From Elusimicrobia bacterium GWA2_51_34 (GTDB lineage: Bacteria; Elusimicrobiota; Elusimicrobia; Elusimicrobiales; UBA9959): a DNA stretch of 34,138 bases. Every line of letters starts with the position of its first letter. Within the stretch, counting starts at the first letter, position 1. Where the stretch lies: positions 1 to 34,138 of the forward strand of contig MGTS01000009.1 in the NCBI GenBank assembly GCA_001799565.1. Direction: 5' to 3'. This document shows, in pieces, positions 3,177 to 30,887 of the stretch. The translations under genes were made by a program, and so were the position numbers. The notes below the pieces were generated by a model, which did no database searches, was not told the origin of the DNA, and worked only from the letters and a program-made list of their open reading frames with translations.

Positions 3177-3767
3177 TTATCCCAGTGCCTGACTACTTTC
3201 AGCCTCAAGCAGACTATAGTTGTATTCCCAATCGGCCTGGTACGCGTCCATCTCTAACAGCGCCTGATAGATTGAGTAGTCAACCGCGTCCAGCCCCGAA
3301 TCAAGCCCGCTGTTCCAGGCCAGTTCCGGGTTTACTCCGCGAACGGAGAATGCGAACATTGCGGCTAGTACCGCCGTTAAAGCGCCGGCAGACAGGGCTT
3401 GCGCCAGATTAAAAGAAAACCTGCCGGTATTTTCCTCAGCCGCGGACAGCGCCAGAGGCCCGCGGCAGGCCAGTGTCTCAGCCGCGGACAGCGCCAGAGG
3501 CCCGCGTCCGCCTAAGGCGGACAGTGTCTCAGCCGCGGACCGGGCCTGCCTCATCACCGTTTCCACCGCGGCCGAAGAAGGCTGCGCGGCCCCGGCTTTA
3601 AGCCAGTCCTCCGCCGCTGACAAAGCGGTAAGCCCGGCCCGGCAGAAAGCGCAAATTTTGAGATGGCTTTCAACACAGGCCTCAAGTTCAGGGCCGGCTT
3701 CGCCGTAGAAGTAAAGGATGAGCTTTTCCCCGTATCCGCAGTTCATAGAAGTATTAATTTCTGCCAT
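3177..3767 (-). CDS. Zinc-finger anti-sigma factor
   Basis: This 196-residue protein begins with an anti-sigma zinc-finger (ZAS) segment whose H-x3-C-x2-C signature is His35, Cys39, Cys42. One membrane helix lies at about 122-143, and a C-terminal domain of about 50 residues would face the periplasm. It should hold the ECF factor encoded just upstream inactive at the membrane. Residues about 78-112 are unusual. They are translated from two full copies and one partial copy of a 30-base G/C-rich repeat, with a GTCCGCCTAAGGCGGAC palindrome after the second, giving the echo GPLALSAAE twice. The assigned ATG at 3767 overlaps a word repeat and has no Shine-Dalgarno sequence. Met8 (3746) is an alternative. 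Confidence 0.85.
   Translation of the reverse strand: MAEINTSMNCGYGEKLILYFYGEAGPELEACVESHLKICAFCRAGLTALSAAEDWLKAGAAQPSSAAVETVMRQARSAAETLSALGGRGPLALSAAETLACRGPLALSAAEENTGRFSFNLAQALSAGALTAVLAAMFAFSVRGVNPELAWNSGLDSGLDAVDYSIYQALLEMDAYQADWEYNYSLLEAESSQALG
3435..3540. repeat. In-frame G/C-rich direct repeat inside anti-sigma gene
   Basis: Identical 30-base copies lie at 3435-3464 and 3477-3506, with a 13-base partial copy at 3528-3540. The 17-base palindrome GTCCGCCTAAGGCGGAC lies at 3506-3522. It also occurs (centre T) at 30856-30872 and 32548-32564. The repeat keeps the reading frame open between the zinc finger and the membrane helix. Confidence 0.8.
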
Positions 3768-3933: not shown

Positions 3934-4662
3934 TTATTGCGGCCCTTTTTCCACCCCGCTACCAAGGAGCCCGCCGGAGGCCGGTTTTGCAGATACGTCG
4001 GCTTCAGCCGCCTGTCCGGGTGGCGGGGCCAGCTCTTTGCGCAGGAATGCCGCCGCCCGGCTCATGCGGGCCAGCACCGTGCCTATCGGCGTTGCGAGTA
4101 TCCCGGCTATTTCCTTAAATGAGAGCTCTGAATAATGCCGCAGGTAAAAAACCTCGCGCTGCTCGGATGAAAGCCGCTCCAGCGCCCGGCTTATCTGTTC
4201 ACCCAAGTTTCTTTTCTCAAGGGCCTCTTGCGGCCCAGGCTCCGGGGAAACCGCTTTATCAAGCGCACCGCAGCCGCCGTCTTCCCCTTCCAGGGGCTCG
4301 GCTCGCCTGGAACTCTCACGCCTGAAATAGTCCATGGCGGCGTTTCTGGCAACGGTAAACAACCAGGCTTTAAATTTATTCTCAATGCTTGCGCAGGAGG
4401 GGAAACCGCTGTGCGGTGTCCCCTCAGCCGTTGGGAAGGGGTGTATCAAAGGGCTATGCCCATCAGACGGCCTTTCGCGGTAGGCGGCGGGATTACGCAC
4501 AAGTTTGAGGAAAACTTCCTGAAAAAGGTCGTCAGCGGCATCGGGCCGGGCGGTAAGGCTAAGCAGATAACCATAAACAGCCGCCTTGTGGCGTTCCATC
4601 AGAACGCCCAGGGCCTCAATGTCGCCGGCTTTGAAAGCCGCAATCAGTTCGGAATCAGTCAT
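3934..4662 (-). CDS. ECF-type RNA polymerase sigma factor with repeat-derived insertions
   Basis: From the ATG at 4662 (MTDSELI) the protein has 242 residues, longer than most ECF factors. Region 2 begins at about 20-63 (DDLFQEVFLKLVRN) and continues at about 95-116 (NKFKAWLFTVARNAAMDYFRR). Region 4 covers about 157-211 (LSFKEIAGILATPIGTVLARMSRAA). About 28 residues rich in Pro, His and Gly (64-92) separate the two parts of region 2, at a site normally bridged by a short linker. Residues 213-235 (starting PPPGQAAEADV) are encoded by a palindromic element also present in the SpoIID gene. A longer open frame to 4704 only adds residues translated from the GAATAGCGAATGG word repeat. No Shine-Dalgarno sequence is seen. 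It is followed by its anti-sigma gene. Confidence 0.9.
   Translation of the reverse strand: MTDSELIAAFKAGDIEALGVLMERHKAAVYGYLLSLTARPDAADDLFQEVFLKLVRNPAAYRERPSDGHSPLIHPFPTAEGTPHSGFPSCASIENKFKAWLFTVARNAAMDYFRRESSRRAEPLEGEDGGCGALDKAVSPEPGPQEALEKRNLGEQISRALERLSSEQREVFYLRHYSELSFKEIAGILATPIGTVLARMSRAAAFLRKELAPPPGQAAEADVSAKPASGGLLGSGVEKGPQ
3950..4030. repeat. Palindromic element in frame in the sigma-factor gene
   Basis: The reverse complement of this stretch aligns over most of its length with 6413-6495 in the SpoIID gene, including CCACCCGGACAGGCGGCT and TCTGCAAA. Ends are imperfectly inverted (CCCCGCTACC against GGTGGCGGGG). It encodes PPPGQAAEADVSAKPASGG on the minus strand, which extends the sigma factor beyond region 4. 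Confidence 0.8.
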
Positions 4663-4671
4663 ATAAAACCA

Positions 4672-4782
4672 GCGAATAGCGAATGGCAAGATAGCGAATA
4701 GCAAAGCATGGAATAAAAAACAGAAAAACCATTAGAATCCGCATTCCCGCCCTATTCGCCATTCGCTATTCCCTATTCGCTG
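4672..4782. repeat. GAATAGCGAATGGC-word inverted repeat
   Basis: The 14-base arm at 4674-4687 is perfectly complementary to 4758-4771. Each side carries further degenerate copies (ATAGCGAATAG; CCCTATTCGC). It fills the divergent spacer between the sigma gene (minus) and the SpoIID gene (plus). A related word occurs at 33845-33920. Confidence 0.8.
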
Positions 4783-4819
4783 CCCTAATAATTTCATACG
4801 ATATCATTATAAAATTTTG

Positions 4820-7024
4820 ATGATACGCATTGTGATTATTTTTACCTCCATTTTTTTTAATGGACGCTTCACAGCCAGGGCGCAGGCTCCGAACGGCGCA
4901 TTGGCGGATAATTTATCCGCCAATGCAGTAGTGGCAAACGCCTACTCCGACTATCTTAAAGGCGATTTAACAAAAGCCGCGGCAGGTTATCTGCGCCTGT
5001 CCGCGCTTGAGCCTGCTAACCCCGCGCCGCTTTTAAACGCCGCCATGTGCTGGCGCCAGGCCGGAAAATACTCCCTGGCCGCGCAGACCATGGACAAGGC
5101 GGCGGCCATAGCTCCGGCAACCCCCGACATTCAGGCGGAAACCGGCTGGCTGAAATTCCATCTGGCCGATTACGCCGCCGCCAAGACGGACTTTGAACTG
5201 GCGCTCACGCTTGCGCCGGATCACGAACGCGCCACTCTTGGACTTGCCAGCGTTTATTCTAACCTTGATAACAGGGACAAAACAGTTGAGCTCCTTGGCC
5301 GCTACAAACAGCTGCGTCCGGATTTTGCCGGGGTGGACTACATTATCGCCTGGAACTACATGAATTTTAAGATGTACAGGGAAGCCGAAGCCTCTTTGAT
5401 AGAAGCGCTGCGCAAAGACATATCTTTCACCGAAGCGCGCCTGCCGCTTGCCGGCATTTACGCGAGGGACGGTAAATTCAACGAAGCATGGAACCAGTAC
5501 CGCCGGGTGCTTGACTACGCGCCCGGCCACCCGGTGGCCTCCAAGGCTATAAAAGTTCTGGAAGGCAAACTTACAAAACAACCTGAAGAGATCCGCCCGC
5601 CTTTTAAAATAATCCGCCCGCTTTCCATGGAGCCGGTGGATATAATAAACAGCCTGTCAAAGTCGGCAAAAATGCGCGTTGGAATAGGCACAGGCAAAAC
5701 CGGTAAACAGGGCAGGAATAACCACCTTAAATTCAAGTCTTTTGAGGGGCTTACCATAACCGGCAAGGCAAGCGGCAAATTATACGCGGAACTCCCCCCT
5801 GACGAGGAATGGACGGCCGAGTACTCCGAAGGGCGCACAGTATTAAAAGACTCCAAAGGTAAAGTTTACGGCCGGTTCAAGGGCCCCATAATTCTGGCCT
5901 CAAAGGATGCTAAAAACGGCTCCATAATTTTTGAGAGCTCAAGAAAATGCGCAAACCCGTGGTTTGCTTTTTCCGACCGGCAGTACCGCGAAGCCATAGA
6001 GCTTTACCCTATACCCGGCCGAGGTCTTGGCGTGGTGAACATTATTGAAATGGAAAAGTATCTTATGGGAGTAGTGCCAAGCGAGGTTTCGTCGCAATGG
6101 CCATACGAGGCGCTGAAAGCCCAGGCCGTAATAGCCCGCACCCAGGCCATAATACGCCGGGCGCGCGGGGGCGCGCACAAGGCTAACGGCTACCATATCT
6201 GCGATGGAGAGCACTGTCAGGCATACAGAGGCATGGCGAATGAGGCCAACTCAACTAACTGCTCGGTGCTTGACACCGAAGGGGAATTGCTGCTTTATCA
6301 CGGCAAACCCGCCTATACCTTTTACCATTCAAACTGCGGCGGCTGGATACAGGCCTCCGGCGAAGTGAGCGGCTGGGGCGATTTACCGTATCTCACCGAC
6401 CACCCCGATAGCGTTACCCCACCACCCGGACAGGCGGCTACAGCCGCCTCGTCTGCAAAGCCCGCCGTAGGCGAGCGTCCGGGTGGTGGGGTTACCCCGC
6501 TCGGAGGGCTGTCGCCATGGGACTTCCACCTTTGGCTTACGGGGAACCCGGAAGCTAACTGCAATTATCCCGGCAAGGTGCGCGCTTCTGAATACCGCTG
6601 GATGAAAATCATACGGCACAAAGACCTGGACTTCCGCGTGAAGCGGGATTATTCCATAGGCGACCTGCGCGAAATTGTGCCGCTGCGGCGCAGCCGTTCC
6701 GGCAATGTTAATTCTATAAGGCTGGTAGGCTCTAAAAAAACCATAACCGTAACCAGAGAGCACCTTATACGGAACCTGCTTGGTTTTTCCCCGCTTAAAA
6801 GCACGCTCTTTGAAATAGAAATAAACCGCTTCAAGGACGGCAGGATACGCAATTACTGGTTTTACGGAGGAGGCTGGGGCCACGCCATAGGGCTGTGCCA
6901 GTCCGGCGCGGCGGGGCTGGCCGGCAAATACGACAAAAAATATCTGGAAATACTTGAATTTTATTTTCCCGGCACCGTGCTGAGGAAAATAAAATACATT
7001 CAAAAAAAGCGTCCGCTAAAATAA
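4820..7024 (+). CDS. Exported TPR + SpoIID/LytB-domain protein
   Basis: The ATG at 4820 gives 734 residues; an in-frame TTG lies at 4817. There is no Shine-Dalgarno, and a TATAAA 6 bases upstream leaves a leaderless message possible. An N-terminal signal sequence (about 1-22, ending ARAQA) precedes TPR-type helix pairs at about 35-255. The SpoIID domain lies at about 400-720, with MEKYLMGVVPSEVSSQWP, LKAQAVIARTQA, YHICDGEHCQAYRG, TFYHSNCGG and GGGWGHAIGLCQSGA. SpoIID-family proteins cleave or bind denuded peptidoglycan glycan strands. In non-sporulating bacteria they are linked to wall remodelling. Residues about 531-557 are encoded by an in-frame palindromic element homologous to one in the sigma gene. 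The stop codon lies in the loop of a terminator. Confidence 0.92.
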   Translation: MIRIVIIFTSIFFNGRFTARAQAPNGALADNLSANAVVANAYSDYLKGDLTKAAAGYLRLSALEPANPAPLLNAAMCWRQAGKYSLAAQTMDKAAAIAPATPDIQAETGWLKFHLADYAAAKTDFELALTLAPDHERATLGLASVYSNLDNRDKTVELLGRYKQLRPDFAGVDYIIAWNYMNFKMYREAEASLIEALRKDISFTEARLPLAGIYARDGKFNEAWNQYRRVLDYAPGHPVASKAIKVLEGKLTKQPEEIRPPFKIIRPLSMEPVDIINSLSKSAKMRVGIGTGKTGKQGRNNHLKFKSFEGLTITGKASGKLYAELPPDEEWTAEYSEGRTVLKDSKGKVYGRFKGPIILASKDAKNGSIIFESSRKCANPWFAFSDRQYREAIELYPIPGRGLGVVNIIEMEKYLMGVVPSEVSSQWPYEALKAQAVIARTQAIIRRARGGAHKANGYHICDGEHCQAYRGMANEANSTNCSVLDTEGELLLYHGKPAYTFYHSNCGGWIQASGEVSGWGDLPYLTDHPDSVTPPPGQAATAASSAKPAVGERPGGGVTPLGGLSPWDFHLWLTGNPEANCNYPGKVRASEYRWMKIIRHKDLDFRVKRDYSIGDLREIVPLRRSRSGNVNSIRLVGSKKTITVTREHLIRNLLGFSPLKSTLFEIEINRFKDGRIRNYWFYGGGWGHAIGLCQSGAAGLAGKYDKKYLEILEFYFPGTVLRKIKYIQKKRPLK
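6413..6495. repeat. Palindromic element in frame in the SpoIID gene
   Basis: The 18-base arms 6413-6430 and 6478-6495 are complementary at 17 positions. An inner hairpin (GGCGGCTACAGCCGCC) lies between. It encodes PPPGQAATAASSAKPAVG, matching the residues encoded by 3950-4030. It interrupts the SpoIID domain between DHPDS and LSPWDFHLW, a surface-loop position. Confidence 0.85.
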
Positions 7025-23529: not shown

Positions 23530-23558
23530 GGTTGCCCGCCGGGCTGCTTGGCGGGCAG
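23530..23558. repeat. REP-like hairpin upstream of metK
   Basis: GCCCGCC (23534-23540) and GGCGGGC (23550-23556) with a 9-base loop. The reverse complement contains GCTGCCCGCCAAGCAG, one base different from the copies at 15840-15903 and 25867-25914. It lies between the phosphohexomutase gene and metK. Confidence 0.7.
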
Positions 23559-23590
23559 CCTATCCACCCGCGCAGTTACATTTTTTGCCT

Positions 23591-25380: not shown

Positions 25381-25845
25381 ATGATTGAAAGAAAAGCATT
25401 GCTTCTTATCGCCGCAATGTCCGCTCTTGCCCTGATAAGCGTTCCCAGCGTGCTTTTTAATAACGCCATTCAGAAATATTTCAAGTTCATAAATTCATGG
25501 AACGTCGCCGCGATAAAGCCTTCAAGAACGGCCCGTCTGCCGGAAATGCGGCAGCACGGCGCAAGCAACGGCGACCTGCCGCAGCCCGAATTGCGCTTTG
25601 TTAAATTTTCAGTTAAGCTGGCCGGGGCTAAAAAAGTAAAAGTGGCGGCTGATTTTAATAAATGGAATCCGGACACGCTGGAACTTGTAAAAAGAAGCCG
25701 CAATGTCTGGGAGACCATAGTACCTCTTCCGCCGGGCATCTACCGCTACCTTTACAACATCGACGGACAGAGCGTGCTGGACCCCATGAACCCAGACACC
25801 GACATGGATCTGGGCCGGAAAGTTTCGCTGCTGACAGTGAAATAA
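25381..25845 (+). CDS. Membrane-anchored/exported CBM48-like protein
   Basis: The ATG at 25381 follows GAGGAA and gives 154 residues. In-frame starts at 25345 (GTG) and 25369 lie in the decayed radical-SAM sequence. A hydrophobic N-terminal segment (about 5-28) acts as signal or anchor. Residues about 75-154 form a glycogen-binding CBM48/AMPK-beta-like domain: VKFSVKLAGAKKVKVAADFNKW, WETIVPLPPGIYRYLYNIDG and DPMNPDTD. These modules bind alpha-glucans. No catalytic domain is attached. It lies beside a phosphohexomutase and a GH57-like gene, consistent with a role in alpha-glucan sensing or handling outside the cytoplasm. Confidence 0.8.
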   Translation: MIERKALLLIAAMSALALISVPSVLFNNAIQKYFKFINSWNVAAIKPSRTARLPEMRQHGASNGDLPQPELRFVKFSVKLAGAKKVKVAADFNKWNPDTLELVKRSRNVWETIVPLPPGIYRYLYNIDGQSVLDPMNPDTDMDLGRKVSLLTVK

Positions 25846-25849
25846 GGTA

Positions 25850-26035
25850 ACTGCTTAGGCTGATAGGCTGCCCGCCAAACAGCTCGGCGGGTCCGCCAAA
25901 GTTGTGGTGGCGGATAGGCAGTTAGACTATTAGGTAAGGCCGTCTGATGGCCATAGGCCTTGATACGGCACTGGCATAGCCCTGAATCCGATCTGACTAA
26001 CAGCCTAATAGCCTACAGCCTAAACAACCTTGACA
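25850..26035. repeat. CAGCCTAATAGCC-word repeat with nested REP-like element
   Basis: Left words (CTTAGGCTGATAGGCTG) and right words (ATAGGCAGTTAGACTATTAGG) flank a REP-like double hairpin at 25867-25914. A third block, CTAACAGCCTAATAGCC-type, lies at 26004-26030, where 15 bases are identical to 3872-3886. A GGCCATAGGCC word is also present at about 25948. It is a mosaic of at least three repeat types in a 208-base spacer. Confidence 0.75.
25867..25914. repeat. REP-like double hairpin
   Basis: It begins GCTGCCCGCCAAACAG (identical to the reverse complement of part of 15840-15903). It forms CCCGCC/GGCGGG and TCCGCC/GGCGGA hairpins in tandem. Confidence 0.8.
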
Positions 26036-30840: not shown

Positions 30841-30887
30841 CTCACCCCGCCACCTGTCCGCCTTAGGCGGACGGTTGGCGGGGTGAG
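30841..30887. repeat. Nested palindrome with GTCCGCCTTAGGCGGAC core
   Basis: The outer arms CTCACCCCGCCACC (30841-30854) and GGTTGGCGGGGTGAG (30873-30887) pair with one bulge. The inner palindrome is at 30856-30872, identical to 32548-32564. It lies between ahcY and the KTSC-like gene. It could act as a transcription barrier. Confidence 0.85.

Follow-up and report, generated by a model that had tools for sequence, protein, structure and literature searches.

A family of small palindromic DNA elements is dispersed through the genome of Elusimicrobia bacterium GWA2_51_34, with 26 of 45 copies lying in protein genes, where they are kept in frame. Our favored reading, to which we assign a probability of nearly nine in ten, is that of a MITE-like family moved in trans by a DDE-type transposase and purged from genes unless the inserted copy is in frame and innocuous. 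The copies themselves, their target-site duplications, the insert-free orthologues, the filter on length (a multiple of three, 3n) and on reading phase, and the wider spread are established by sequence comparison. Hairpin-shaped mobile DNA has, it appears, entered dozens of genes, essential ones among them, and added harmless residues there instead of breaking the protein.

Two copies in the window and the family to which they belong

The window (the whole stretch of 34,138 nucleotides of contig MGTS01000009.1 that was analyzed) contains two related copies in protein genes. The first, a 75-nt palindrome of what will be called subfamily A (6417..6491, plus strand, read as TPPPGQAATAASSAKPAVGERPGGGV), lies in a gene for a TPR + SpoIID domain protein (4817..7024, plus strand), between left and right target-site duplications TTA (6414..6416 and 6492..6494). 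The second, also of 75 nt and of subfamily A but degenerate, provides the C-terminal tail of an ECF sigma factor encoded by the neighboring gene (3934..4662, minus strand, with its ATG at 4662 in an ORF that opens at 4704); it occupies 3954..4028 on the minus strand, is read as APPPGQAAEADVSAKPASGGLLGSGV, and is bounded by CCA duplications (TGG on the coding strand) at 3951..3953 and 4029..4031. The homology originally proposed for these two places is real: over 75 nt, 6417-6491 can be aligned from end to end with the reverse complement of 3954-4028 (as an inverted-repeat pair: 76 nt, 75% complementary), and the SpoIID element finds the sigma copy by BLAST (E = 9.4e-8, 82% over 50 nt). Each has terminal inverted repeats YCCCACCACC...GGTGGTGGGR, the two share phase and orientation of reading, and their translations are the very peptides of the original prediction. 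That prediction also located the elements properly, within 6413-6495 and 3950-4030; the exact limits are the tighter ones given above, with the 3-bp duplications outside. The claim of in-frame insertion in two proteins holds for SpoIID; the sigma copy constitutes a new C-terminal tail and is not an internal insert. The SpoIID copy is predicted to fold as a closed hairpin with a long terminal stem and two inner hairpins (DNA z = -6.4), intact copies of the family fold at z = -6 to -10, and the sigma copy has lost its hairpin fold (z = -0.3). A third window copy (30845..30883, 39 nt, CCCCGCCACCTGTCCGCC..GGCGGACGGTTGGCGGGG) is intergenic and belongs to subfamily C, the shortest common one.

The SpoIID/sigma match is not a matter of chance, since there are further BLAST relatives, as well as matches to the terminal-repeat pattern that are wholly absent from a control. 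The genome (2.63 Mb in 43 contigs, its sequence examined as stretches around matches) yields five clear copies by BLAST with the element, these two included; paired terminal-repeat patterns give 14 and 11 matches per strand, the reversed-pattern control giving 0, and a single-end pattern matches 81 times, as against 7 in its control. Most apparently solo ends have a degenerate partner nearby (the check for distant partners of single ends allowed up to 3 mismatches), and a count made after checking degenerate partners comes to at least 45 elements. The copies in other proteins that had been anticipated are thus found, in frame, in unrelated proteins of the same genome. Ends of the form YCCCACCACCYG...CRGGTGGTGGGR are common to all, while interiors (about 25-81 nt, plus nested copies) are unrelated from one subfamily to another, with lengths from outer CCC to GGG of 73 nt (A), 58 (B), 37 (C), 56 (D) and 76 (E). 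With nested copies included, the terminal CCC-to-GGG span is 25-148 nt, into which a transposase gene cannot fit. In a polysaccharide deacetylase gene, for instance, a subfamily-A copy has itself received a 43-nt element of another subfamily, and the frame of the gene is still intact. No Rfam family matches the window above its gathering score, and plasmid and phage records contain no match to the element.

(A technical note on other repeats: the ECF sigma gene has another in-frame insert, PSDGHSPLIHPFPTAEGTPHSGFPSCASIE, which is unrelated to the first and about 30 residues long, at window positions 4378-4470 (minus strand); orthologues are without it. In translation it has about ten further matches in the same-genus genome G045, several of them with stop codons, and it is therefore another dispersed repeat. 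Positions 4449-4474 match 25936-25961. Window positions 3426-3546, together with loci L022, L035, L220 and L225, define an in-frame repeat family with VADSAIGPRQASVT-like units of about 42 nt, tandem or scattered in several proteins and adjoining, or inserted into, palindromic elements. An inverted-repeat family, CCCGCCGGGCTG..TGGCGGGCAGCC, at 23535-23586 and 25840-25891 (52 nt at 83%) is unrelated to the palindromic element.)

Target-site duplication and occurrence in other genomes

Once the terminal Y..R pair is assigned to the element, a direct repeat of exactly three bases is left on the two sides, most often TCA, TGA, TAA or TTA and in some cases CCA or TGG; by inspection, the preferred flanking site is the palindromic RTNAY. 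The 3-bp match is present in 64 of 89 copies from Elusimicrobiota (own genome and others), Omnitrophota and 'Deltaproteobacteria' MAGs, a control position shifted further out gives 2 of 89, and the duplication is imperfect or absent in about a quarter of copies. The outermost base of the element alternates between C and T, yet nearly always complements that of the opposite end (82/89); such a variable but complementary pair is unusual for the fixed end of a transposon. Short, devoid of a transposase gene, and furnished with terminal inverted repeats and a target-site duplication, these elements have the structural attributes of MITEs.

Might they instead be single-strand hairpin elements mobilized by a Y1 transposase of the IS200/IS605 or RAYT/REP type? 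Strong single-strand hairpins, short palindromes scattered genome-wide and targets resembling short tetranucleotide targets are all compatible with that proposal. IS200/IS605-type insertion generates no target duplication, and the high proportion of duplicated copies speaks against this mode, so that mobilization by a Y1 enzyme seems improbable.

How widely is the MITE-like family distributed? The strict pattern matches 10 of the 295 genomes sampled from the phylum, in several families. Beyond this genome, further Elusimicrobiota, Omnitrophota and some 'Deltaproteobacteria' MAGs carry the same ends together with TNA-type duplications. The 35 pattern hits from the remaining taxa, for the most part actinobacterial, include 0 with the 3-bp duplication and 2 with Y..R tips. 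The contrast with the 64 duplications in the three groups identifies the family as real there and the remaining pattern hits as noise: those in Streptomyces and other actinobacteria are accordingly set aside as chance or unrelated palindromes.

Coding copies and insert-free orthologues

The 26 copies that we class as coding have hosts supported by Pfam or by orthologues, or, for 2 of the 26, by a spanning ORF alone. Pfam-supported hosts include PheT, DnaX, MnmG, dihydrolipoamide dehydrogenase (Lpd), a CCA-type nucleotidyltransferase, QueA, NadC and Omp85 (the last two at their N-termini), an amidohydrolase, an ABC transporter, a beta-lactamase-family protein, an ApbC/Mrp ATPase and an outer-membrane efflux protein; the insert peptide of PheT is PPPASGPKGPDKVGQAGGG. 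Element plus duplication is divisible by three in every coding copy (26/26) as compared with 11 of the 19 others (Fisher p = 3.5e-4); against an expectation of 1/3, the binomial p is 4e-13. All coding copies but one (25/26) use a single phase, xTN-AYC-CCA-CCA..., which gives (V/L)TPPP...GGGV and in which the TNA duplication is never a codon; QueA is the sole exception in this genome to the PPP...GGG phase. (In NadC, locus L039, and Omp85, locus L032, insertion is at the ATG start, with ATGA as target: the start codon is preserved in the left copy and an N-terminal MTPPP... extension is gained. In NadC, a GTG lies immediately past the element.)

Avoidance of stop codons is not the sole cause of this uniformity, because representatives of subfamily B are stop-free in six of six frames and all but one of its coding copies nevertheless use the frame and orientation PPPASGPxGPxKVGQAGGG. 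For subfamilies A, B and E the frame used is also the one with the highest share of P/G/S/A/polar residues among the six, and the element peptides are low-complexity, linker-like P/G/A/S sequences. We read this as purifying selection against harmful frames. There is only a weak hint of selection acting on element interiors: when disorder of the encoded peptides is compared with that of dinucleotide shuffles, three element tests give p = 0.02-0.08 and two give 0.25-0.54. In other genomes, common ends with unrelated interiors stand in frame in PdxA, an AspRS-like synthetase, a chlorite-dismutase-family protein, glycogen synthase, a xanthine-dehydrogenase-like subunit, iPGM and DHOD. In one Elusimicrobiota MAG, a fumarase-type lyase and a NicO protein hold two copies with CCA duplications that are read in a different phase (PHHLL...); the preference for phase is thus strong, not absolute.

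A genic copy, as we picture it, would survive only if the combined length of element and duplication is divisible by three and no stop occurs in the phase used; in nearly all coding copies that phase is PPP...GGG, which does not take a TAA/TGA duplication as a codon and yields, among the six possible peptides, the one most like a linker. Such a filter would leave genes with an insert of 14-26 residues (up to about 50 if nested), probably translated as a tolerated loop or tail and probably neutral. Alternatively, ribosomes might skip the hairpin, as they do with byp-type inserts, so that the peptide is never made. Strong hairpins within essential genes might recommend translational bypassing, which, however, has no need of 3n length or of an open frame; the coding copies are nevertheless without exception 3n and open, and degenerate copies that have lost their hairpin (the sigma copy, for one) are in frame as well; we consider it very unlikely. 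For annotation there is a warning here: PPP...GGG segments of 14-50 residues in proteins of Elusimicrobiota and Omnitrophota, essential enzymes included, are to be taken as mobile DNA and not as domains.

Orthologues without the insert, which insertion predicts, are found for SpoIID, the sigma factor, PheT, MnmG, the amidohydrolase, the ABC transporter and the beta-lactamase-family protein. SpoIID-related matches are present in 59 of 59 family genomes searched: orthologues aligned from outside the genus lack the insert, and many other matches break at it. In G207, which belongs to the same genus and is the closest relative (83% identity), the corresponding codon of the SpoIID gene (locus L154) is the site of a different element, namely VNPPPSSYFPKMNFRFKAGGGIN, with ends CCCGCCGCC...GGCGGCGGG and the duplication TAA. 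The explanation is either a repeated insertion at a tolerated position (a hotspot) or an ancestral insertion with an interior that has diverged past recognition. ECF sigma orthologues of the same genus and family stop before the element and have no such C-terminal tail. In same-genus and same-family orthologues of the other five proteins the insert is missing and the flanking alignment is undisturbed. Nor do distant orthologues share the peptide: PDB homologues of Lpd, MnmG and PheT align with a gap at the insert. That these segments are ancestral conserved linkers, alike by coincidence and lost in relatives, is scarcely credible: the peptides do look like low-complexity linkers, but homology at the DNA level spans unrelated genes and intergenic sites, palindromic ends and 3-bp duplications accompany it, and the clean absence from same-genus, same-family and PDB orthologues refutes it.

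The proposed mobilizing enzyme and other palindromic elements

By what means would the MITE-like elements move? A DDE-type transposase working in trans would be expected to leave the traces observed here: terminal inverted repeats, a duplication of fixed length, copies that are dispersed or nested, and recent insertions specific to a lineage. Elements would insert at RTNAY-like sites and duplicate the three bases at the center, TNA in most cases and CCA/TGG in some, and it is from this 3-bp duplication that we infer a cut-and-join transposase, acting in trans with a 3-bp stagger; the interiors would be interchangeable hairpin sequences. Among the 81 ends in the own genome no long-range pair encloses a transposase or an autonomous element. 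Long end pairs in other loci were rejected as autonomous elements: they enclose (by eye) gas-vesicle-type, glycine-dehydrogenase-like and lipid-kinase-like genes, and are two short elements placed close together. A Pfam search finds neither DDE_Tnp_1 (PF01609) nor DDE_Tnp_4 (PF13359) in the own genome; DDE_Tnp_4 is absent from the 11 genomes searched, and the DDE_Tnp_1 genes of related and Omnitrophota carriers have other ends, with no CCCACCACC. MAG assemblies often lose IS copies, and the absence of a transposase is therefore weak evidence; many accepted MITE families, to our knowledge, also lack a known autonomous partner. The IS1031 group of the IS5 family makes 3-bp TNA target duplications. 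An IS5/IS1031 origin is not supported: DDE_Tnp_1 and DDE_Tnp_4 are missing from the own genome and PF01609 loci elsewhere are without CCCACCACC ends; IS1031 ends also differ from those of the element, and the group serves as a lead only. One can go further and speculate about a transposon lineage adapted to genes, its ends selected as a flexible PPP...GGG linker and its interchangeable interiors held to 3n, served by a transposase of unrecognized type and supplying linkers to the proteins of at least three phyla; we rate this stronger version as rather unlikely, if considerably less so than the alternatives weighed above.

Protein-coding palindromes have so far been a Rickettsiales oddity, joined by a few reports from one archaeon and by enteric ERIC elements, and we know of no established mechanism for their movement. 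The Elusimicrobiota family, with its mostly lineage-specific copies, visible duplications and insert-free orthologues within the genus, makes the insertion mechanism and the tolerance of the host proteins directly testable. It is, apparently, previously unreported: a literature search for the end sequence turned up nothing relevant and, among the papers searched, no description of such a family; the original prediction had recognized no described family in it either. The 3-bp TNA-type duplication, the interior subfamilies, the extension to other phyla, and the filter on length and phase are new beyond that first account.

The likeness to Rickettsia palindromic elements (RPEs) drawn in the original prediction is apt for the mode of action and does not extend to membership. 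The present elements are MITEs by structure, with a TNA duplication and another size. RPEs and the Wolbachia palindromic elements are likewise small in-frame palindromes of several sequence families, located in many unrelated and often essential genes and encoding a tolerated peptide. Even individual hosts recur: RPEs have also been reported in PheT and QueA (PMC3767692), each of which harbors an Elusimicrobiota element. The differences are equally plain: 1) single copies here measure 27-83 nt and RPEs about 100-150 bp; 2) the elements described here have the CCCACCACC end in common and their 3-bp TNA duplication is clear, the target duplication of RPEs being listed as unknown (PMC2229807); 3) for RPE-bearing genes of R. 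japonica, every rickettsial orthologue examined has an insert at the corresponding locus, while most insertions compared here are absent even from genomes of the same genus. Homology to an RPE family is unlikely, lineage (Elusimicrobiota), size and C-rich ends all setting the elements apart. As size differs, the duplication is evident here and the demonstrated resemblance is one of mode only, the name RPE should not be applied.

The protein-coding palindromes of the archaeon Methanocaldococcus jannaschii (Suyama et al. 2005, as cited in PMC2996958 and PMC2229807) are, in the descriptions given by those citing papers, on which the comparison is based, also repetitive, endowed with coding potential and inserted in genes. 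Similar in structure are the Correia/NEMIS, ERIC and RUP MITEs: non-autonomous, hairpin-forming and transposase-less, with terminal inverted repeats and target duplications, and responsible for some in-frame fusions (PMC2229807, PMC10969869). Those elements have TA termini and lengths of about 100-200 bp; the Elusimicrobiota family differs in its TNA duplication, in its C-rich ends, and in that most copies found lie in coding sequence.
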